Positions 11,325 to 34,866 of a DNA stretch of 35,017 nucleotides are shown piece after piece. This DNA is from Candidatus Rokubacteria bacterium GWA2_73_35 (GTDB lineage Bacteria; Methylomirabilota; Methylomirabilia; Rokubacteriales; CSP1-6): positions 1 to 35,017 of the forward strand of contig MGBU01000036.1 of assembly GCA_001790205.1 (NCBI GenBank), in the 5' to 3' direction. Below the pieces are notes generated by a model, which saw nothing but the letters and a program-made list of their open reading frames with translations, ran no database searches and was not told the DNA's origin. A program made the position numbers and the translations under genes. Position 1 is the stretch's first letter. Each line of letters begins with the position of its first letter.

Positions 11325-11972
11325 TCAGCAGCGGCTCCCGCGGGGGCAGAACTTCACCTCGGGGAAGAGGATGACGAGCGCCACCACCAGGAAGACGACG
11401 ACGGCCACGACGAACCAGAAGTCGGCTGAGCGGAGCGCGCCCCGGTGCCAGCGCCCGGGCATCGCGGGGATCGCGTCGTCGCCGACACCGTGGTAGACGG
11501 CGACCAGGCCGCCGACGAAGCGGCGCAGGCGCGCGCGCTCGTCGGCGCGCTGCGAGAGGAACTCGAGCCCGACCGTCCGCTCCCGCACCCAGCGCACCAC
11601 CGCCCCGTCCACCTCGAGCGCGCGGTCGGCGGGGAGGTGGAGGCGCAGCCGGAGGACCGCCCCGACCACCAGGAGCGCGTCGGTCTCGAGCGTGCAGCCC
11701 GCCATGGAGATCTGGGTCACGGCGCCCTCGGCCGCGAGCGCCCCGGTGGAGAGGCTCGCGGGCAGGCGCGCCACGAGCCGGTCGAACTCGCGGCGCTCGG
11801 GCTGCTGCGTGACCCAGCGCGTGCCCGGCTGGATCGCGCGGAAGCGCCGCCCGCAGAGCTGGCAGCGGAACGGGTAGACGGACACGCGGCTCAGCAGCCG
11901 CTCGACGACCCCCGATCGGTGCGTCCGCCGGACGACGTGGCGCCCACACTTCGGGCACCGGAGCCCTCCCAT
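11325..11972 (-). CDS. Zinc-ribbon, PilZ and transmembrane protein
   Basis: 215 residues in three parts. An N-terminal zinc ribbon has CPKC (Cys6, Cys9) and CQLC (Cys37, Cys40). A PilZ-like domain (~residues 55-165) has the arginine-rich QPERREFDRL and QISMAGCTLE in place of the D/NxSxxG motif, so cyclic-di-GMP binding is plausible. One transmembrane helix follows near residues 188-207 with a short Cys-containing tail. The ribbon would face the cytosol. Divergent from typA with a 51 bp shared upstream region. Its signalling target cannot be inferred from neighbours. Confidence 0.8.
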   Translation of the reverse strand: MGGLRCPKCGRHVVRRTHRSGVVERLLSRVSVYPFRCQLCGRRFRAIQPGTRWVTQQPERREFDRLVARLPASLSTGALAAEGAVTQISMAGCTLETDALLVVGAVLRLRLHLPADRALEVDGAVVRWVRERTVGLEFLSQRADERARLRRFVGGLVAVYHGVGDDAIPAMPGRWHRGALRSADFWFVVAVVVFLVVALVILFPEVKFCPRGSRC

Positions 11973-12023
11973 GGGGAGAGGCTATCACCCTCCCCGCGGG
12001 AGAGCGTGATACATTGATGAGGG

Positions 12024-13823
<1,800 letters not shown>

Positions 13824-13862
13824 TCGCGGGGCCCCCGGGAGGGCGGCCGCCGCCGCGGGCGC

Positions 13863-13891
13863 TTGACGGCGCGGCGGGAATCGCGGATCGT
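13863..13891 (+). promoter_or_regulatory. Weak sigma-70-like promoter before the tetrahaem cytochrome
   Basis: TTGACG (13863-13868) is followed 17 bp later by GATCGT (3 of 6). Placed 30 bp before the start codon at 13923. The -35 is good, the -10 weak. Confidence 0.3.
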
Positions 13892-13922
13892 TGTCGGGGA
13901 CGACGCCAAGGAGACCCGCTCG

Positions 13923-15149
13923 ATGAGCCGACCGACGTGGTGCGCGCGCTGGCTTCCCGCCCTGTGCGGCGTCGTCCTCCTCTCCGCCGTCGGGCCGGCG
14001 TGGGCGCAGCAGCCGCCGGCGCCCCCGAAGCCGTTCGGCCCGGACTGGGCGATGTTCGCCGGCTACGACGTGTTCGTGAAGAAGGGCTGCGGCCAGTGCC
14101 ACGCGGTGCGCGGCGTGGGCGGCACGATCGGGCCGGACCTCGCGCGCGTCCGGACCGAGGCCGGCTTCTACGAGCTCGGCGCGGCGCTCTGGAACCACCT
14201 GCCCCTGATGGGCGCGCGCATGCGCCAGGAGGGGCGGGAGCGGCCCACGCTCAGCGCGCGTGACGTGTCGAACCTCCTCGCGTTCCTGTTCACGGCCCAG
14301 TACGCCGACGAGTCGGGCGACGCCCGGGCCGGCGAGCGGCTCTACGCGGCGAAGGGCTGCGTCCGCTGCCACGGCCCGGGCGGCCGGGGCGGCGACGGCG
14401 GCCCGGCGCTCGCGGCGCTGCGCCGCGCCAACTCGCCGGTGCTCGTCGCGACGGCGATGTGGAACCACGGGCCCCGGATGGCCGAGGCCATGCGCGCGCG
14501 CGGCATCCCGCGCCCGACGTTCACGGGCCGGGAGCTGGTGGACGTGATCGCGTACGTCGTCCAGGCCGGGCCTCGGCCCGAGGCGGCGGAGACCGTGCAG
14601 GTCGTGCCGGGGACGCCCGAGCGGGGCGAGAAGCTCTTCGTCGAGAAGCAGTGCGCCGCCTGCCACGCGCTCGGGGGCAAGGGCGGCACGGTCGGCCCCG
14701 CGCTCGGCCGCGCGCACCACGTGAGCCTGACGCAGTTCGCGGGCGCGATGTGGAACCACGGGCCCGCGATGTGGGCGCGGATGAAGGAGCGCGGGATCGC
14801 GGCGCCCCAGCTCTCCGGCCAGGACACCGCCGACCTCGTCGCCTACCTCTACACGACCCACTACTTCGACCACACGGCGGGCAGCGCCACGCGCGGCCGC
14901 CTGCTCGTCCAGGGCAAGGGCTGCCTCGGCTGCCACTCGGTCCGCGGCAAGGGCGGCACCGTCTCGGCCGATTTCGCGACCTCCACCGCCGTCGGGTCGG
15001 CCGCGAGCGTGATCGCGGCGATGTGGAACCACAGTCGCGCGATGGAGGAAAAGGCCGCACGGCAGGGCGTGAAGCTGCCCGTCCTCAGCGGCGCCGAGCT
15101 CGCCGACGTCGCCCGCTACCTCGGCTCGCTGGCCCCGCGGCCCCGGTAA
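13923..15149 (+). CDS. Tetrahaem cytochrome of four tandem WNHxPxM cytochrome c domains
   Basis: Periplasmic electron carrier, 408 residues. A signal peptide ends near AWAQQ. Four class-I-like cytochrome c domains follow with CXXCH at residues 56, 146, 244 and 334 (spacing 90, 98, 90). Each domain has a conserved WNHLPLM / MWNHGPRM / MWNHGPAM / MWNHSRAM segment, whose Met is the likely distal haem ligand, and most end in a (D)xVAYLY-type helix. AAGGAG lies 8 bp before ATG 13923, which decides the start over the upstream in-frame TTG. A hairpin follows the stop. It is co-linear with the protein at 19073-20251. Redox partners are unknown. Confidence 0.9.
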   Translation: MSRPTWCARWLPALCGVVLLSAVGPAWAQQPPAPPKPFGPDWAMFAGYDVFVKKGCGQCHAVRGVGGTIGPDLARVRTEAGFYELGAALWNHLPLMGARMRQEGRERPTLSARDVSNLLAFLFTAQYADESGDARAGERLYAAKGCVRCHGPGGRGGDGGPALAALRRANSPVLVATAMWNHGPRMAEAMRARGIPRPTFTGRELVDVIAYVVQAGPRPEAAETVQVVPGTPERGEKLFVEKQCAACHALGGKGGTVGPALGRAHHVSLTQFAGAMWNHGPAMWARMKERGIAAPQLSGQDTADLVAYLYTTHYFDHTAGSATRGRLLVQGKGCLGCHSVRGKGGTVSADFATSTAVGSAASVIAAMWNHSRAMEEKAARQGVKLPVLSGAELADVARYLGSLAPRPR

Positions 15150-15161
15150 TCCTCCGGCTGG

Positions 15162-15179
15162 TGGGGCGCATTCGCCCCA
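15162..15179 (+). terminator. Hairpin after the tetrahaem cytochrome gene
   Basis: TGGGGCG and CGCCCCA form a 7 bp stem around a CATT loop, 13 bp past the stop codon. No long T-run follows, so intrinsic termination is plausible but unproven. Confidence 0.5.
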
Positions 15180-15267
15180 TCCATCCCGCCTCATCCCCAG
15201 GGGTTGACCGCCTGCACCCTCTGAGAGGCCCCAACGATTCCAGCTTGTTAGGCGCCGCCGGCGCGGG

Positions 15268-15284
15268 TGGCACAGGCGTTGCGT
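15268..15284 (+). promoter_or_regulatory. Sigma-54 promoter of the UGA-containing gene
   Basis: TGGCACAGGCGTTGCGT keeps the invariant GG (-24) and GC (-12) with exactly 10 bp between them and matches most of the TGGCACG-N4-TTGCW consensus. Transcription would begin near 15293-15296, about 30 bp before the ATG at 15323. An enhancer-binding activator would be required; none is encoded in this window. Confidence 0.75.
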
Positions 15285-15322
15285 ATCCCTCCCCTTACAA
15301 ATCAGCCCGGGAGGGGGGCACG

Positions 15323-15760
15323 ATGGGGGCGCGCCGGCGAGGGCTCAGCAAGTGGTGGTGGCTCGGGCCGCTGATCGGGGCCTCGGCCCTCGCCGCGATC
15401 CTCGCCTGGCGCGGCGCAAGCCCCACCGAGGAGGCGAGGGCGCGCCAGGGCCAGGGCGGCGCGGTCCGCGTGGCCCGCCGCGAGACGCGCCCCACACTCG
15501 ATCCCGCGCGCTTCGTGGGCAAGGCGCGGCTCGCCCACCAGGTCGCGCGCGACATCCCCGACGTCCTCGACCAGCTCTACTGCTACTGCGAGTGCGACAA
15601 GACCATCGGCCACAAGAGCCTGCTCTCCTGCTTCACGGACGGCCACGCGGCCACCTGAGACATCTGCCAGGACGAGGCGCTGGACGCGTCTCGCATGGTG
15701 CAGGCGGGCTTCCGCGTGGACCGGATCCGCGCCGAGATCGACCGCAAGTACGCCCGATGA
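15323..15760 (+). CDS. PCYCGC-family protein with in-frame UGA: candidate selenoprotein (U112)
   Basis: 145 residues if TGA at 15656-15658 is read as selenocysteine. An N-terminal membrane anchor (~residues 11-30) is followed by a linker and a Cys-rich domain: CYCEC (Cys87, 89, 91), IGHKSLLSCF (Cys103), then HAAT-U112-DIC115-QDEA and a helix ending RIRAEIDRKYAR. Family members, as I recall them, have HGANCDICLDEA here, so UGA replaces the first Cys of a C-X2-C pair. After the UGA 33 sense codons continue, 31 of them ending in G or C, and the final TGA overlaps the next gene's start as ATGA. If UGA is a stop, the product is a 111-residue fragment lacking the second half of the motif. Function of the family is unknown; a thiol-redox or metal-handling role at the outer face of the membrane is inferred. 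Confidence 0.8.
15673..15693 (+). promoter_or_regulatory. Putative bacterial SECIS-like hairpin
   Basis: Begins 15 nt after the in-frame UGA. CGAG/CTCG and GCG/CGC form a stem with a 2-nt bulge (GU) on the 3' side and a CUGGA apical loop containing two G residues. CUGC (15664-15667) and GCAG (15700-15703) can extend it below. Distance and loop fit bacterial SECIS elements, though the loop lacks a G in its first two positions. Confidence 0.5.
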
Positions 15761-17685
15761 TCCGCGCCCTCCTCGCCGCGGTGCTGCTCGTGGTGGCGCC
15801 GACCGCCGCGGGCGCCCACGGCGAGCACGGCGGCGCCGAGCGGCTCGGCGCGGGCGGGATCGTCACGGTGGGCGGCTGGCAGGTCGAGCTGCTGAGCCAC
15901 CCGGCGCCGCTCGCGCGCGGCCGGCCGAGCCACGTGGTCGCCAAGGTGCTGACGGGCGCGGGGCTGGCGCCGGTCTCCGGCGGCGAGGTCGCGATCGGCC
16001 TCGGCCTCGCCGGCACCGCGCCCGAGGTGCGGCCGGCCGTCGAGACGGCGTGGGCGGGCAACTACGGGCTCGAGCTCACCCCCGGGCGCACCGGCGAGCA
16101 CGTCGTCCGCGTCGTGCTCGGAGCACTCGGCGCGCAGCGGTTCGAGCCGCCGCTCGTCGTGGACTTCCCGGTCGGCGTCGAGCGCGCGCCGGGGATGGGC
16201 GTGGCCGCGTGGACGGTCCTCGGGCTCCTCGCCGCCCTCGCCGCGCTCGCGGTCGGGGCGGGCCGGCTGCGCACGGCCCCGACGGTCGACCTCCTCACGA
16301 TCCCGTGGCTCCGGCGGCTCCTCACCTCGCTCACCTTCCAGCGCGGGCTCCAGCTCGGGATGCTCGTGGTCACCGCGGGCGTCGTGTGGATCGGCCTGGC
16401 CGACGTGCAGGACGGCGCCGTCAACCTCGCGACCAAGCTCACGTGGACGATCTGGTGGGCCGGCATCATCTTCACGTTCGTCCTCGCGGGGCGCGTGTGG
16501 TGCGTCGCCTGCCCCTTCGGCGCGCTCAACGAGTGGACCGCGCGGGCGAGCGGGGCCTGGCGCCGGCTGCCGCGGCCGTTCAGGAACATCTGGTGGGCGA
16601 CCGCCGCCTTCGTCCTCCTCACGTGGGCCGACGAGCAGCTCGGCGTCGTGCGCTCGCCCCGCATCACGGCCTGGATCATCCTGTTCTTCGTCGCGCTCGC
16701 GGTCGCGGTCGGGCTCGTCTACGAGCGGCGGAGCTTCTGCCGCCACCTCTGCCCGATCGGCGGGCTGATCGGCATCTACTCGATGACCGCGCCCCTCGAG
16801 CTCCGCGCCAAGGACGCCGCGACGTGCCGCGCGCACGCCGAGAAGGGCTGCTACCAGGGCACGGCGGAGAGCGCGGGCTGCCCGATGTTCGAGTTCCCGC
16901 AGGCGATGGACCGGAACAACTACTGCACGCTCTGCGTCGAGTGCGTGAAGGGCTGCGCGCGCGACAACCTGGCGCTCCGCGTCCGCGCCTTCGGCCGCGA
17001 CCTCTGGACGACGCGGCGGCGGGTGCTCGACGAGGCCTATCTGGCCGTGGCGCTGGTGGGCCTGACGCTGCTCGTGACCGCCCAGATGCTGAGCGCGTGG
17101 CCGGGCTTCATCTCGGCGCTGGCGCGCTGGCTGCCCCACGCGGTGCGGGCGAGCCTCAAGCCCGTCACCTACCTCACGCTCGTCGAGTCGGCGGTGCTGC
17201 TGGTCGGCGCGCTCGTGGTGATACCGCTCGTCGTGCTCGCGGGCGCCGCCCTCGCCGACCGGCTCGCGGGCGAGCGCGGGCTCGGCCTCCGGCGCACCTT
17301 CGTCGTCTTCGGGTACGTCTTCGTCCCGGTCGGCCTCGCGGTGCACCTGGCCCACAACCTCGCCCACCTCCTGCTCGAGGGCGGCGGCGTCGTCCCCGCG
17401 GTCCAGCGCGCCGCGGCGCTCTGGACGCCCTTCTCCCTCGGCGAGCCGGACTGGCGCGGCACCGCCCAGGCGCCCGAGGCGGTCGTGGGCTTCCTCCAGG
17501 TGGCGGTCCTCGTCGCGTTCTTCGTCCTCTCGCTCCTCGCCGCGCACCGCCTCTCCGCGCGCGAGTACGCCGACCCGCGGGCCGCGAGCCGCGCGGTCGT
17601 CCCGTTCGTCGTCCTCTCGCTGGCCTTCACCGTGGCCGGCATCGTCCTGCTCCAGCAGCCCATGGGCATGCGCCATGGCATGTAG
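15757..17685 (+). CDS. NapH/NosR-like polyferredoxin membrane protein with N-terminal periplasmic domain
   Basis: 642 residues. A signal peptide leads into a short His-rich stretch (HGEHGG) and a ~130-residue beta-domain resembling FixH/YtkA-type periplasmic domains. Around ten hydrophobic segments follow, with CVACP (Cys249, Cys252) and CRHLCP (Cys328, Cys332) motifs as in NapH/NosR/CcoG proteins. A ferredoxin motif CTLCVECVKGC (Cys390, 393, 396, 400) comes next. The tail ends MGMRHGM. Such proteins pass electrons between quinol and periplasmic reductases or help maturation. The ATG overlaps the stop of the candidate selenoprotein gene, so the two are coupled and probably act together. A strong hairpin follows. 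Confidence 0.85.
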   Translation: MIRALLAAVLLVVAPTAAGAHGEHGGAERLGAGGIVTVGGWQVELLSHPAPLARGRPSHVVAKVLTGAGLAPVSGGEVAIGLGLAGTAPEVRPAVETAWAGNYGLELTPGRTGEHVVRVVLGALGAQRFEPPLVVDFPVGVERAPGMGVAAWTVLGLLAALAALAVGAGRLRTAPTVDLLTIPWLRRLLTSLTFQRGLQLGMLVVTAGVVWIGLADVQDGAVNLATKLTWTIWWAGIIFTFVLAGRVWCVACPFGALNEWTARASGAWRRLPRPFRNIWWATAAFVLLTWADEQLGVVRSPRITAWIILFFVALAVAVGLVYERRSFCRHLCPIGGLIGIYSMTAPLELRAKDAATCRAHAEKGCYQGTAESAGCPMFEFPQAMDRNNYCTLCVECVKGCARDNLALRVRAFGRDLWTTRRRVLDEAYLAVALVGLTLLVTAQMLSAWPGFISALARWLPHAVRASLKPVTYLTLVESAVLLVGALVVIPLVVLAGAALADRLAGERGLGLRRTFVVFGYVFVPVGLAVHLAHNLAHLLLEGGGVVPAVQRAAALWTPFSLGEPDWRGTAQAPEAVVGFLQVAVLVAFFVLSLLAAHRLSAREYADPRAASRAVVPFVVLSLAFTVAGIVLLQQPMGMRHGM

Positions 17686-17692
17686 CTCATGA

Positions 17693-17719
17693 GCGCCGAG
17701 GGGCGCGTCCCCTCGGCGC
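17693..17719 (+). terminator. Strong GC hairpin after the polyferredoxin gene
   Basis: An 11 bp perfect stem, GCGCCGAGGGG with CCCCTCGGCGC, and a 5-nt loop, starting 8 bp after the stop codon. It marks the end of the sigma-54 operon. Confidence 0.7.
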
Positions 17720-17741
17720 GCGCGCGGTGAGGTGTTCGCAC

Positions 17742-17791
17742 CGGGCCCTTCCGGCCGTTCGGGCCCGACCGAGTTGCTTATTTGGGTCGGG
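17742..17791 (+). promoter_or_regulatory. Two mutually exclusive hairpins upstream of the octahaem gene
   Basis: CGGGCCC (17742-17748) pairs with GGGCCCG (17761-17767). CCCGACC (17764-17770) pairs with GGTCGGG (17785-17791). They share 17764-17767, so only one can form fully. This could be an attenuator-like leader if transcription starts upstream; chance pairing in GC-rich DNA is possible. Confidence 0.3.
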
Positions 17792-17849
17792 AGCCGGGTG
17801 TGCTAGGAGACAGGGAGCGAGGGCCGCCGCCCTCGCGAGGAGGCGAGTC

Positions 17850-18971
17850 ATGCGATTCGTCCAGTTGGCACGGCTGCTCGGCTGTTGCGCCCTCGGGATC
17901 GCCGCCGCAGTGCTTCTCCTGTCCGGCGCCGCCGACGCCCAGGGCGGAAAGGTCCTCCCGCTGCCTTCCGAGAAGGTCTCGCCCCAGGCCCAGGCGAAGG
18001 GCTACGCGGGGCCCCAGGCCTGCGTGCAGTGCCACAGCGAGAAGTACGACGACTACCGGGCCAGCGGGCATCCGAAGAAGCTCCGCCCCGCCGCCGAGGC
18101 CCGCGCCTGGGGCGTGCCGCTGCCCGAGGGCTGGGAGTGGGACGACATCAGCTACGTGGTCGGCGCCCGCTGGAAGGCGCGGTTCATCGACACCCAGGGC
18201 TACCTCGTCACGTCGACGGGTCCGAAGAAGGACAAGCCCGGGAAGAACCAGTACAACCTCGCCACGGGGCGCTGGGTCAACTACGAGGCGGGGAAGAAGC
18301 TGCCGTACTCGTGCGGCCCGTGCCACATGACGGCCTACAGCAAGGCGGGCAACCAGGACGGGCTTCCCGGCATGGTCGGCACGTGGGCGTTCCCGGGCAT
18401 CACGTGCGAGGAGTGCCACGGCCCGGGCGCCGCGCACGCGAGCGCACCCAGCAAGACGAACATCAAGGTGGACAAGAGCCCGGCGGCGTGCGGCAAGTGC
18501 CACATCCGCGGCGCGCCCGACAAGATCCCCGCGGGCGGCGGGTTCATCCAGCACCACGAGCAGTACAACGAGTACCTCGCGGGGCCGCACGCGGGCAAGG
18601 TCTCCTGCGCGACGTGCCACGACCCGCACAAGCGGGCGGCGGTCTCGATCAGGAAGCAGTGCGCCGACTGCCATCCCTCGCAGGCCAAGAACTTCACGGG
18701 CAGCAAGATGCAGCGCTCCGGCGTCACCTGCGTCAACTGCCACATGCCGCCCGGCGGCAAGAGCGCCGAGGCCTTCGGCAAGTACGTGGGCGACGTGAAG
18801 ACCCACATCGCGAAGATCTCGACGAACCCGGCCGACAGGATGTTCAGCGACGACGGCAAGCTCGCGACGGGCAAGCTGACGCTCGACTTCGCGTGTCTCG
18901 CCTGCCACGGGAGCCGCGACATGGCCTGGGCCCTGGCGAACGCCAAGGGGATCCACACCAGGGGTAAGTAG
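17850..18971 (+). CDS. Secreted octahaem c-type cytochrome
   Basis: 373 residues with a signal peptide (to about residue 30, ending GAADAQG) and eight CXXCH motifs: CVQCH, CGPCH, CEECH, CGKCH, CATCH, CADCH, CVNCH and CLACH. A ~75-residue haem-free insert between the first and second motifs contains WEWDDISYVVGARWKARFI and QYNLATGRWVNY, a pattern known from multihaem cytochromes that precede NrfA- or c554-like electron-transfer modules. AGGAGG lies 6 bp before the ATG. No membrane anchor is present beyond the signal peptide. It is flanked by hairpins on both sides, so it is probably its own transcription unit. No catalytic site could be recognised; an electron-transfer role is inferred. Confidence 0.88.
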   Translation: MRFVQLARLLGCCALGIAAAVLLLSGAADAQGGKVLPLPSEKVSPQAQAKGYAGPQACVQCHSEKYDDYRASGHPKKLRPAAEARAWGVPLPEGWEWDDISYVVGARWKARFIDTQGYLVTSTGPKKDKPGKNQYNLATGRWVNYEAGKKLPYSCGPCHMTAYSKAGNQDGLPGMVGTWAFPGITCEECHGPGAAHASAPSKTNIKVDKSPAACGKCHIRGAPDKIPAGGGFIQHHEQYNEYLAGPHAGKVSCATCHDPHKRAAVSIRKQCADCHPSQAKNFTGSKMQRSGVTCVNCHMPPGGKSAEAFGKYVGDVKTHIAKISTNPADRMFSDDGKLATGKLTLDFACLACHGSRDMAWALANAKGIHTRGK

Positions 18972-19005
18972 CCCCGGCGTGGGGCCTTCGGACCACGAGC
19001 GTCGT

Positions 19006-19037
19006 GCAATCGGCGAGGGGGCGCCCTCGCCGATTGC
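19006..19037 (+). terminator. 14-bp perfect hairpin after the octahaem gene
   Basis: GCAATCGGCGAGGG and CCCTCGCCGATTGC pair perfectly around a 4-nt GGCG loop, 35 bp past the stop codon. It is the strongest stem in the window. It has no T-tract but is a very likely transcript end. Confidence 0.75.
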
Positions 19038-19072
19038 GCCCGGCCGCCGCGGGCGCGTAGGATAGCGGGATC

Positions 19073-20251
19073 ATGCGGCCCGTCCTCCTCGCGCTCGGCC
19101 TCCTCGTGGCCCTCGCCGGGCCGGCCCTCGCGCAGTCCCTCTTCGGCGCGACCCAGGATCCGCTCGCCGGCTCCCGCGTGTTCGGCGCGCGCGGCTGCGT
19201 CAAGTGCCACGCGGTGAACGGCGTCGGCGGCATGGTCGGCCCCGATCTCGGTCGGATCGAACGGCCGCGCTCGTTCTTCGACCTCGCGGCGGCGCTCTGG
19301 AACCACGCCCCGCGGATGGCCGAAAGGATGCGGCAGCAGGGCATCGCGCGTCCCCGGCTCGACGCCCGCGAGATGGGCGACCTCGTCGCGTTCCTCTTCA
19401 CGCTCGACTACTTCGATCCCCGCGGCGACGTCGACGCGGGCCGGCGCCTCTTCACCGAGAAGCGCTGCGTGGTCTGCCACCAGGTCGGGGGCACCGGCGG
19501 CGTGGTCGGCCCGAACCTCGACGCGCTCCGGCAGTACGCGTCGCCGATCTACCTCGCCGCGCAGATGTGGAACCACGGCCCGCAGATGGCCGCGGTGATG
19601 GCGGCCCGGAAGATCCCGCGGCCCTCGTTCAAGGACGCCGAGCTCCGCGACCTGATCGCCTACATCGGCGCGGCGTCGCCGGTGATCGCGCAGGGGCCGC
19701 TCTACGTGCTGCCCGGCCGCGCGGGCCGGGGCCGCGCGCTCTTCGCCCAGAAGCGCTGCGCCGAGTGTCACAGCGCCGCGGGGCAGGGCGGCACGCTCGG
19801 CCCCGACCTCGCCGAGCGGAGCGTCACCCTGAGCCTGACCCAGTTCGCGAGCGCGATGTGGAACAAGACGCCGGCGATGCTCGCGGCGATGAAGAGCCGC
19901 GCGATCCCGGTGCCCCAGCTCCAGCCCGACGAGATGGCGGACGTCGTCGCCTACCTCTACTCCGTCCGCTACTTCGCCCAGGGCGGCGACCCGAAGAAGG
20001 GCGTCGCGGTCGCGAACGCCAAGGGCTGCCTCACCTGCCACGCCCTCGCGGGGGAGCGGGGCAAGCCCGCGGGCGACCTCGCCCGGGCGAAGGGCCTCGA
20101 CTCGCCGGCCGCCGTCCTCGCGGCGCTCTGGGACCACTCATTCATCGCGGACCCGCGGCCCGCGCGCGCCAAGGCGCCCTGGGCGGAGATCCGGCCCGGC
20201 GAGATGGCGGACCTCGTGGCCTTCCTCCAGTCGCTGCGCCGCCCGCAATGA
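19073..20251 (+). CDS. Tetrahaem cytochrome of four tandem WNHxPxM domains, last domain degenerate
   Basis: 392 residues with a signal peptide ending near ALAQS. CXXCH occurs at residues 42, 132, 229 and 319 (spacing 90, 97, 90), co-linear with the protein at 13923-15149. Domains 1-3 have LWNHAPRM, MWNHGPQM and MWNKTPAM. The fourth has LWDHSFIADP and no Met at the ligand position, so its haem may have a different distal ligand. TAGGAT at 19058-19063 could be a -10 for a nearly leaderless transcript. The stop overlaps the next ATG as ATGA, placing this gene at the head of the nonahaem-Rieske-cytochrome b set and making it a likely soluble electron acceptor of that complex. Confidence 0.9.
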   Translation: MRPVLLALGLLVALAGPALAQSLFGATQDPLAGSRVFGARGCVKCHAVNGVGGMVGPDLGRIERPRSFFDLAAALWNHAPRMAERMRQQGIARPRLDAREMGDLVAFLFTLDYFDPRGDVDAGRRLFTEKRCVVCHQVGGTGGVVGPNLDALRQYASPIYLAAQMWNHGPQMAAVMAARKIPRPSFKDAELRDLIAYIGAASPVIAQGPLYVLPGRAGRGRALFAQKRCAECHSAAGQGGTLGPDLAERSVTLSLTQFASAMWNKTPAMLAAMKSRAIPVPQLQPDEMADVVAYLYSVRYFAQGGDPKKGVAVANAKGCLTCHALAGERGKPAGDLARAKGLDSPAAVLAALWDHSFIADPRPARAKAPWAEIRPGEMADLVAFLQSLRRPQ

Positions 20252-21618
20252 CGCACGCGCGACGCTTCGTCCGCCGGGCGCCGCTCCTGCTGCTGCTGAC
20301 GCTCGCCGTCTGGGTGGCGCCGGCGACGGCGCAGCCCACGAAGGCCCCGCCGGCCAAGCCCCAGCCGGCGGCGGCGCAGCCCGCGAAGAGCCAGCCCGCG
20401 ACCGCGCAGCCCGCGAAGGCCGCGGTCGAGGGCTGCGCCACCTGCCACCGGGACACCGGCGACGAGCGGCTGGCAGGCCCCGTGAAGCTCTTCGACGGCG
20501 ACATCCACAAGGCCAAGGGGTTCGGCTGCGTCGCCTGCCACGGCGGCGACGGCAAGAGCGCCGAGATGGACGCGATGGACCCGGCGAAGGGCTACGTCGG
20601 CAAGCCGGGTCGCGGGCAGCTCACGCAGCTCTGCGGCCGCTGCCACTCGGACGCGCGCTTCATGAAGCAGTACAACCCGGCGCTGCGCGTGGACCAGGTG
20701 GCCGAGTACGCCACGTCGGTGCACGGGCGGCGCCTGCGCGAGCTCAACGACCCGAAGGTGGCGACGTGCGCCAACTGCCACCCGGCGCACTCGATCAAGC
20801 CCCCCTCGGACCCCGCCTCGAGCGTCCACCCGCTGCGCGTCGCCCAGACGTGCGGCCAGTGCCACGCGGACGCGAAGTACATGGCGGGCTACAAGATCCC
20901 CACCGACCAGCTCGCGAAGTACACGCAGAGCGTCCACTGGAAGACGATGTCGGCGAAGGGCGACCTCTCGGCGCCGACGTGCAACGACTGCCACGGCAAC
21001 CACGGCGCGGCGCCGCCGGGCGTTTCCTGGGTCGGCAACGTCTGCGGGCAGTGCCACACGGTCATGGCCGACCTCTTCGGCAAGAGCGTGCACGCCCGCG
21101 CGTTCCGCGACCTGGGCGTGCCCGGGTGCGCGACGTGCCACGAGAACCACGACATCAAGCCGGCCAGCACCGAGATGCTCGGGCTCGGCGGCCCGGCCGT
21201 GTGCTCGACGTGCCACGACGCGGGCAGCAAGGGCGGCCGCGCCGCCGTGGAGATGCGGGCGCTGATCGACGGCCTCAGGACGGAGCGCGACCGCGCCTCG
21301 GAGATCCTCGCGCGGGCGGAGCAGGCGGGCATGGAGGTGAGCCAGGCCCGCTTCGAGCTCGGTGGGGCCAACGACGAGCTCGTCAAGGCGCGCGCCGCCG
21401 TGCACGCCTTCCAGGTGGCGGCCGTGAAGAAGGAGGCGGAGGCCGGGCTCACGATCGCGCAGAAGGTCTACGCGCGCGGCGTGAGGGCCCTCGAGGACCT
21501 CCGCTTCCGGCGCACCGGCCTCGTCGTCTCGCTGGTCATCATCGTCGTGCTCATCGCCGCCCTGGTCTTGAAGATCCGCCAGATCGAGCGCCGCACGAGG
21601 TCACCGATCCAGGGCTGA
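20248..21618 (+). CDS. Nonahaem cytochrome with C-terminal coiled coil and membrane anchor
   Basis: 456 residues. A signal peptide and a Pro/Ala/Lys-rich linker (QPAK-type repeats, residues ~30-57) are followed by nine CXXCH motifs: CATCH, CVACH, CGRCH, CANCH, CGQCH, CNDCH, CGQCH, CATCH and CSTCH. Repeated YATSVHG, YTQSVHW and FGKSVHA segments supply probable distal His ligands. After the haem region come ~90 residues of predicted coiled coil (MRALIDGLRTERDRA onward), then one transmembrane helix near residues 425-445 and a basic cytoplasmic tail. The start overlaps the upstream stop. Its position before Rieske and cytochrome b suggests it takes the place of cytochrome c1 or f (inference). 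Confidence 0.9.
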   Translation: MTHARRFVRRAPLLLLLTLAVWVAPATAQPTKAPPAKPQPAAAQPAKSQPATAQPAKAAVEGCATCHRDTGDERLAGPVKLFDGDIHKAKGFGCVACHGGDGKSAEMDAMDPAKGYVGKPGRGQLTQLCGRCHSDARFMKQYNPALRVDQVAEYATSVHGRRLRELNDPKVATCANCHPAHSIKPPSDPASSVHPLRVAQTCGQCHADAKYMAGYKIPTDQLAKYTQSVHWKTMSAKGDLSAPTCNDCHGNHGAAPPGVSWVGNVCGQCHTVMADLFGKSVHARAFRDLGVPGCATCHENHDIKPASTEMLGLGGPAVCSTCHDAGSKGGRAAVEMRALIDGLRTERDRASEILARAEQAGMEVSQARFELGGANDELVKARAAVHAFQVAAVKKEAEAGLTIAQKVYARGVRALEDLRFRRTGLVVSLVIIVVLIAALVLKIRQIERRTRSPIQG

Positions 21619-33329: not shown

Positions 33330-34129
33330 CGCACCTCTCCGTCGAGATTGGCGTAGTACACCTTCGGGTCCGTGTTGAGCTGGGGCTTGAGGACGTGGAG
33401 CTTGTTGAGCCGCCGGAAGCGCACGAGCCGGCTCGCGTGGCTCCGGAGGTCGCCGAAGATCCGGGCCTGGGTCGGGCAGACCTCGACGCAGGCGGGCTGG
33501 AGCCCCTTGACGAGGCGGTGCAGGCAGAAGGTGCACTTGTCGGCGACCCGGGTCTTCGGGTGCAGGTAGCGCTGCCCGTACGGGCACGCCTGGATGCAGT
33601 AGCGACAGCCGATGCAGCGCTCGGCGTCGATGATGACCACGCCGTCCTGCGTCGTGAACGTCGCGTTCACGGGGCACACCTGGACGCAGGGCGGCTTCTG
33701 GCACTGGTTGCAGAGCTTCGGGACGAAGAAGGTCCGCACGACCTCGCGGGCGTCCTGCACCGGCTCCCGCATCGGCTCGCGCGCCGTGCCGAGGCTGATG
33801 TTCCCGACGCTGACCTCCCCGTCGCGGGTGATCGTGTAGCGCTCGACCCAGGTCCGGAAGTAGAAGGGCTCGTCGGGCACGTCGTTCTCGACCTTGCACG
33901 CGACGGCGCACAGGTTGCAGCCGATGCACTTGTCGATGTCGATGCCCATGCCGTAGTAGTGGGCGCTGGGCTCGTAGCCGTTCTTCGCGTTCGGCGCGGC
34001 GGCCGGCTGCTTCGCGGCCGGCTCCTTCGCCGCGGTCTCCTTGCCGGCCGCGTGGCGCGCGACGGCCCCCAGCACGCCGGCGGCGGGGATGAAGACGACG
34101 GCGCCCTTCAGGAACTCGCGCTTGTTCAT
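33326..34129 (-). CDS. Four-cluster ferredoxin subunit (NrfC/DmsB-like) with Tat-like signal
   Basis: 267 residues. The N-terminus MNKREFLKGAVVFIPAAGVLG resembles a twin-arginine signal with KR in place of RR. An Ala/Lys/Pro-rich linker follows. Four 4Fe-4S motifs are seen: CIGCNLCAVACK, CNQCQKPPCVQVCP, CIGCRYCIQACP and CTFC..PACVEVCP. This is the standard electron-transfer partner of NrfD-type proteins and lies between that gene and an octahaem cytochrome with overlaps on both sides. No molybdopterin subunit accompanies the set. Confidence 0.92.
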   Translation of the reverse strand: MNKREFLKGAVVFIPAAGVLGAVARHAAGKETAAKEPAAKQPAAAPNAKNGYEPSAHYYGMGIDIDKCIGCNLCAVACKVENDVPDEPFYFRTWVERYTITRDGEVSVGNISLGTAREPMREPVQDAREVVRTFFVPKLCNQCQKPPCVQVCPVNATFTTQDGVVIIDAERCIGCRYCIQACPYGQRYLHPKTRVADKCTFCLHRLVKGLQPACVEVCPTQARIFGDLRSHASRLVRFRRLNKLHVLKPQLNTDPKVYYANLDGEVR

Positions 34130-34866
34130 GGCCGCCCCTCGGGGAGGTGCGGATAGTGGCACTCCCAGCAGAGGTTGCGCGCCCCGTGCGTGGCGATGTC
34201 CACCTTCGGCGCCTCCTTCGGCGTGCCCGCTCGCCCCTGGCCGTGACACGTCGCGCAGAACTCCCGCGAGTCGGGCTTCGACGGCAGGGCGGTTCTCGGC
34301 GCGGTCTTGTGCCGCTCGGGCGCCTTGTGGCACGTGGTACAGGTGAGGAGCGCGTGGCTCGACACCGCCTTCGTCCGCTCGATCTGGGCGTGGCACGCCG
34401 CGCACTCCTTCGGCACCTTCGGGGGCACCGGATCGTGCGGGTTGTGGCACGTGGAGCAGGACTTCAGCGGGTTGTGCGTCGTCAGGTTGATCTGCGGGAA
34501 GCCCGTCGGTCTGGACGGGTCGTAGGCGTGGCACCTGGCGCACGTCGTGCGATCGCGCGGGATCACGGGCTTGGCGGCCGACGGGTCCTCGGCGTGCTTG
34601 ACGGACGGGGCGTGGCAGCCCTCGCACGCCAGCACCCGGTGGAAGCTCTTCGCCTTCTTGGCCGCGATGTCGTCGTGGCAGTCCTGGCAGGCCGTCGAGC
34701 CCGCGAACTTCACCGGCTTGGCCGACTCGCGCTGCGTGGTGAGCGACCAATGCAGGGAGGTGGACGTGAGCGAGCGCGGAATGAGAACGAAGCGGGCGAC
34801 GAGCGTGAGCGCGACGAGGACGCCGATGACGATCGCGAGCCGTTTGACCTGCTCAGGAATTCTCAA
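34126..34866 (-). CDS. Membrane-anchored octahaem cytochrome
   Basis: 246 residues, starting with TTG 34866, preceded by AAGGAGG with a 6 bp gap. One N-terminal transmembrane helix (~residues 8-28) and eight CXXCH motifs: CQDCH, CEGCH, CARCH, CSTCH, CAACH, CTTCH, CATCH and CWECH. It overlaps the ferredoxin gene as ATGA. In a quinol:cytochrome module of the NrfD type it would accept electrons from the iron-sulfur subunit (inference). No substrate site was recognised. Confidence 0.9.
   Translation of the reverse strand: MRIPEQVKRLAIVIGVLVALTLVARFVLIPRSLTSTSLHWSLTTQRESAKPVKFAGSTACQDCHDDIAAKKAKSFHRVLACEGCHAPSVKHAEDPSAAKPVIPRDRTTCARCHAYDPSRPTGFPQINLTTHNPLKSCSTCHNPHDPVPPKVPKECAACHAQIERTKAVSSHALLTCTTCHKAPERHKTAPRTALPSKPDSREFCATCHGQGRAGTPKEAPKVDIATHGARNLCWECHYPHLPEGRP

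Follow-up and report, generated by a model that had tools for sequence, protein, structure and literature searches.

The 35,017-nt stretch of Candidatus Rokubacteria DNA analyzed here (the window) carries a selenoprotein gene followed directly by a gene for a membrane polyferredoxin, and the question raised by this locus is how the two-gene unit is turned on. A first-pass annotation had placed a sigma-54 promoter in front of it. The reading that we consider very probable is that the unit has a sigma-54 core promoter, a palindromic site upstream to which an NtrC-type regulator would bind, and an IHF-type bend between them, and that it belongs to a stress or low-energy regulon.

The selenoprotein gene and its polyferredoxin partner

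The selenoprotein gene (15323 to 15760, plus strand) contains an in-frame TGA at 15656 to 15658 and ends with a TGA stop codon at 15758 to 15760. Its 145-residue product, with the internal TGA at residue 112 (Sec112), matches PF13798 and scores above the cut-off for the CYCXC family (seleno)protein, hypothetical protein OS_HP4 (NF041379; 130.1 bits, cut-off 90). The TGA position and the motif CYC.C...HAATU..C were kept in all 17 aligned homologues; close homologues have one TGA each, and some deltaproteobacterial proteins have Cys instead. The genome encodes a tRNA-Sec (C82:9921-10014; 69.8 bits, gathering threshold 47) and, on the same contig, SelB (C82:5354-7228; 371.7 bits, cut-off 242). 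A SECIS-like hairpin with an 8-pair stem lies 3′ of the Sec codon (15673 to 15693, plus strand). Its synonymous positions, including a serine codon TCT, are invariant in 11 genomes; the stem is the same throughout and hence shows no covariation. Folding energy downstream of the TGA was unremarkable (z, −0.40); for this hairpin, the synonymous-site conservation is more telling than the folding energy.

The polyferredoxin gene (15757 to 17685, plus strand; Fer4_5 and NapH-like segments) has a start codon that overlaps the selenoprotein stop codon (ATGA), and the same pairing is seen in Rokubacteria and some Deltaproteobacteria. A 2026 review lists the CYCXC family with a UxxC motif and as a hypothetical protein (PMC13188914); the portion of its text that was searched makes no mention of CYCXC selenoprotein regulation or of a polyferredoxin partner.

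Some features of the surroundings were also apparent. Multiheme c-type cytochromes abound elsewhere in the window, and a BipA/TypA gene lies directly upstream of the cytochrome-selenoprotein cluster (12024 to 20251), as it does in G076. In two relatives (G073 and G080), the selenoprotein and polyferredoxin genes flank a cassette of multiheme cytochrome c7, Fer4, and NrfD genes (L092:5262-8087). The window encodes, at a distance of 17 kb (34126 to 34866, minus strand), a cytochrome that resembles the first one of that cassette in its N terminus and shares its Pfam families. Many Rokubacteria also have a second, divergent class of TGA-bearing proteins, the PCFCGC/PCYCGC proteins, without a sigma-54 core (L142, L147, L152, L154, L155, and L159).

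A sigma-54 core promoter precedes the unit

The sequence TGGCACAGGCGTTGC at 15268 to 15282 (plus strand) is a perfect sigma-54 core, with a −24 element TGGCAC and a −12 element TTGC. Within TGGCACAGGCGTTGCGT (15268 to 15284, plus strand), GG at 15269-15270 is followed by ten bases and then GC at 15281-15282, which bears out the GG-N10-GC promoter of the first-pass annotation. TGGCAC-N5-TTGC has a single match with 0 or 1 mismatch in the 35-kb window, and it is this site. Having at least one site at up to one mismatch is by itself unremarkable, as 76 of 100 window shuffles have one; a perfect core in the 173-nt intergenic region has a probability of about 0.00025 by dinucleotide shuffle. In the genome to which the window belongs (G000; 3.54 Mb, 77% complete), there are 24 perfect matches, compared to 2 for a reversed control, and many of the 24 are followed 40 to 120 nt later by a plausible start codon. 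Given the standard spacing of sigma-54 promoters, transcription is predicted to start at about 15294 (plus strand), about 12 nt after the −12 element. The leader to the ATG at 15323 would then be 29 nt, in agreement with the earlier assertion that the distance to the ATG is right, and it includes a GGAGG-type ribosome-binding site, GGAGGGGGG, at 15310 to 15318 (plus strand). The genome also encodes RpoN (C123:4972-5445; PF04552, 208 bits) and has 17 strong matches to activator ATPases (PF00158), the two components that the annotation had proposed looking for. Its mention of sigma-70-like promoters at the neighboring cytochrome genes was not reproduced: a strict sigma-70 scan of 11900 to 20300 found no promoter, a result of little weight given how GC-rich the genome is. 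About 300 nt upstream, weak resemblances to the core (TGGAACCACAGTCGC) stem from a repeat (MWNH) in the coding sequence of the cytochrome gene and are not promoters.

The annotation had further proposed checking whether the site is conserved upstream of homologous pairs, and the comparison showed that it is. TGGCA[CT]N5[AT]TGC was present no more than 250 nt ahead of the selenoprotein gene at 14 of the 17 homologous loci with upstream sequence, compared to a mean of 0.014 and a maximum of 1 in shuffles. The three loci without it are G094, which has no core in the 2.4 kb of contig available, and G018 and G019, where the core has another place (see below); the closest relative, G074, was left out of this test since its contig ends at the gene. 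Across the 14 promoters GG and GC are invariant, and the core columns are 94% identical compared to about 29 to 33% for the anchored flanks. This conservation amid unconserved flanks is the decisive support for the core being real. The core also moves together with the unit. In G019, where the gene order is swapped and the polyferredoxin comes first, the core (2329) precedes the polyferredoxin gene, with the palindrome described below 101 bp before it. In G018, an activator gene is followed by palindrome and core, 207 bp apart, and then by a co-directional run of multicopper oxidase, universal stress protein (USP), small protein, selenoprotein, and polyferredoxin genes. The core was found in none of the 12 divergent Methylomirabilis-type homologues, nor at the TGA-bearing PCFCGC paralogues used as a negative control, and it is missing from most deltaproteobacterial and Nitrospirota homologues; one of these homologues, L125, has a core at the right place without such a palindrome. 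By every feature that can be tested in sequence, the site appears to be an enhancer-dependent sigma-54 promoter.

A conserved palindrome and an IHF-like element lie upstream of the core

A dyad search upstream of the core yielded TGGGG-N8-CCCCA. In the window this is the 18-bp palindrome TGGGGCGCATTCGCCCCA (TGGGGCG-N4-CGCCCCA) at 15162 to 15179, which is symmetric with respect to strand, starts 106 bp before the core, and is centered at about −123 from the predicted start. All 14 homologous promoters have it 99 to 106 bp before the core, within the span of about 80 to 200 bp expected for a sigma-54 activator site, and amid unconserved flanks; all 10 specified bases are kept in 10 promoters, 9 in three, and 7 in one (L012). 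Only two exact copies exist in the genome, the one in the window and one at C221:2322-2339, and a perfect sigma-54 core follows both; the probability that an exact copy precedes a core by chance is about 0.0008 each. When 95 genomes of the phylum were searched for palindrome and core at this spacing, 31 matches were found in 19 genomes, compared to none for a reversed control. Judged by its conservation, spacing, and co-occurrence with cores, the palindrome is a candidate enhancer-like activator site. At the C221 copy (C221:2246-2339), the core is 79 bp away, and the gene after it encodes a small secreted protein that matches no Pfam family.

Between palindrome and core, at 15238 to 15250 (plus strand; about −56 to −44), lies TTCCAGCTTGTTA, which has 7 of the 9 specified bases of the IHF-like motif WATCARNNNNTTR. 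Every one of the 14 homologous promoters contains a match of 7 or more of the 9 bases (mean of 4.0 promoters and maximum of 9 in shuffles), as do 10 of the 22 other sigma-54 sites in the genome (mean of 2.5 and maximum of 8 in shuffles); the motif had been picked post hoc, after inspection, for both tests. Its position shifts between promoters, and in some the best match is on the opposite strand. Owing to shifts of 1 or 2 bases, ungapped identity in the region (35%) does not exceed that of the flanks (33%), and the evidence for the element is the motif test. The genome encodes an IhfB-like protein that is over one NCBIfam cut-off (117 versus 115) and under another (109 versus 120). An IHF-like element here is thus a prediction from the motif, held with moderate confidence.

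An NtrC-type response regulator is the likeliest activator

Activator-dependent control had been assumed in the first-pass annotation. The conserved palindrome and a plausible cognate activator now support it, with the dependence itself a prediction. The candidate is a response regulator, referred to here as C208 (C208:5243-6637), with a receiver domain, a sigma-54 AAA+ domain containing GAFTGA, and HTH_8. In this architecture it is like the NtrC-family response regulators AtoC, NtrC, and ZraR. Its best NCBIfam scores are to AtoC (469 of 714 bits) and NtrC (432 of 559 bits), yet these are below every curated cut-off shown, and going by these scores, C208 would not count as an accepted member of a named regulator family. 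An adjoining gene encodes a membrane histidine kinase with PAS, HisKA, and HATPase_c domains.

Two lines of evidence, adjacency and co-occurrence, point to C208. First, its gene is followed by a palindrome with 9 of 10 bases (AGGGGCTGCCCGGCCCCA), a core 72 bp from it, and a USP gene. Most of the 30 orthologue loci inspected have palindrome-like sites and a core downstream, a USP gene usually comes next, and paired palindromes 19 bp apart are common. A good example of adjacency to the selenoprotein unit itself is G018, where the NtrC-type regulator gene directly preceding palindrome, core, and operon encodes a protein 59 to 61% identical to C208 with the same HTH recognition region. Second, a C208 orthologue was found in 14 of 18 selenoprotein-bearing genomes compared to 23 of 77 others (P = 0.0003, ignoring the relatedness of the genomes; 17 candidates were scored per genome, and some genomes without an orthologue are incomplete). 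At the threshold used, no orthologue was detected in G066 or in G080, G084, and G019, the last three of which have selenoprotein, palindrome, and core. On balance, and with reasonable though not strong confidence, we take C208 to be the likeliest activator, and the selenoprotein promoter is probably turned on by a dedicated two-component signaling system.

The alternative that survives best keeps the same promoter and enhancer and assigns them to another NtrC-family activator, such as a second type that in G073 and G080 is encoded two genes before the selenoprotein, with a TGGGG-N8-CCCCA palindrome directly after its gene. This type has a partial orthologue in the window's genome (C23; 82% identical). 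However, it is present in 7 of the 18 selenoprotein genomes compared to 14 for the C208 type, and it is absent from G076, G065, G093, and G019, all of which have palindrome and core. The promoter beside it, TGGGG-N8-CCCCAGGTG-GGCA with a CGGCA-type core, is slightly unlike the selenoprotein promoters, and the activator directly beside the operon in G018 is of the C208 type (59% identical). We therefore regard a different activator as unlikely, although it deserves some weight, and the second type might also act in addition to C208. Separately, a longer, related enhancer-like motif, TGGGG-N8-CCCCAGGTGRGGCA, was seen with a CGGCA-N6-TTGC core (L087:8017-8160, L092:2709-2850, and L089:5587) preceding a gene for a small membrane protein upstream of a cytochrome gene; it is possibly the site of the second activator type.

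Other explanations for the palindrome and the core

A GC-rich palindrome just after the stop codon of the upstream cytochrome gene (15147 to 15149) could instead be a terminator or RNA hairpin of that gene, with the core real and the enhancer elsewhere, and half-site changes do often keep the symmetry. Against this, the length (18 bp) and the distance to the core (99 to 106 bp) are fixed, no T-run follows, and a terminator scan does not list 15162 to 15179. The palindrome is also kept where the upstream gene differs (L005, L009, and L016) and before the polyferredoxin gene in G019, and there remain the cores adjoining both exact copies and the 31 composites versus 0 reversed. The terminator was dropped on the fixed length and spacing, the lack of a T-run, and the differing upstream genes, and this explanation is very unlikely. 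Least probable, to the point of being negligible, is a core that arose by chance, with the unit transcribed either as read-through of the co-directional cytochrome gene or from a promoter of another sigma factor. Some of the genome's perfect cores may indeed be coincidental, as a few of them overlap long coding-like frames, but this one is kept in 14 of 17 loci amid unconserved flanks, with or without that cytochrome gene upstream, and together with the palindrome.

A candidate regulon of stress and electron-transfer genes

Returning to the sigma-54 promoter with an upstream NtrC-type activator, the 31 palindrome-core matches in the phylum give an indication of what else it may control. Eleven precede the selenoprotein gene or, in G019, its polyferredoxin partner. 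The others precede genes for Hsp20, USP, CBS-domain, DUF6335, and phosphoribosyltransferase-hydrolase proteins, as well as genes for a molybdopterin oxidoreductase, a pyruvate:ferredoxin oxidoreductase-type (PFOR) enzyme, a thiolase, an ethylbenzene dehydrogenase-type heme protein, and a histidine kinase; for some of these genes the calls came from a simple script and may be in error (e.g., L175). This target set resembles stress and low-energy regulons.

The elements, their conservation, spacing, and co-occurrence, and the gene neighborhoods are observed, and they suggest the following mechanism, in which binding, activation, the identity of the activator, and the role of IHF are predicted. 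RpoN polymerase would wait at 15268 to 15282. A phosphorylated NtrC-type regulator, most likely C208 switched by the adjacent PAS-domain membrane histidine kinase, would bind at 15162 to 15179, and an IHF-type protein would bend the DNA near 15238 to 15250 so that the regulator meets the polymerase at the core. ATP hydrolysis by the activator would open the promoter, and a transcript from about 15294 would carry the selenoprotein and polyferredoxin genes. The same switch would control USP genes and, in relatives, Hsp20, CBS-domain, DUF6335, and oxidoreductase genes; being common to stress and oxidoreductase genes, it would place the selenoprotein pair in a stress or low-energy regulon.

These features are like those of known NtrC/RpoN-type sigma-54 promoters: a TGGCAC-N5-TTGC core, a palindromic site about 120 bp upstream, an IHF-like site between them, and rpoN and NtrC-family activators in the same genome, although here they are known from sequence alone. 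In the Desulfovibrio vulgaris sigma-54 regulome (PMC4641369), too, activator genes adjoin sigma-54 targets and sites were inferred by comparative genomics; that organism belongs to a different phylum, and the part of the text searched does not mention a universal-stress or selenoprotein regulon. The kind of promoter is thus already known, and what is new is the regulon. We lean, by a narrow measure, toward an undescribed two-component sigma-54 regulon in Rokubacteria/Methylomirabilota, in which a histidine kinase, an NtrC-type regulator, and a TGGGGCG-N4-CGCCCCA enhancer would couple the selenoprotein-polyferredoxin electron-transfer unit to USP, Hsp20, CBS-domain, and oxidoreductase genes; in function it would resemble a dormancy or low-oxygen regulon. 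No description of this palindrome, its regulator, or its regulon in Rokubacteria/Methylomirabilota was found in the literature searched, and a search linking selenoproteins, sigma-54, and Rokubacteria returned nothing relevant.

Rokubacteria are uncultured, and their RpoN and its targets were likewise not found described in the literature searched. In the present case, the sequence spells out an entire enhancer-dependent promoter, which can be tied to a candidate two-component system and a conserved target set. The CYCXC selenoprotein, so far hypothetical, gains a fixed partner, the membrane polyferredoxin, and a regulatory context of stress and electron-transfer genes; its role therefore becomes testable.

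Other perfect cores of the genome were also seen in suggestive places. Three lie within 8 kb on one contig (C154; L045 to L047), near small secreted or metal-related and Rieske-like genes, and others (L032, L048, and L052) precede genes that by eye are type IV pilus-like (PilB-like and PilX-like) or HflK-like.
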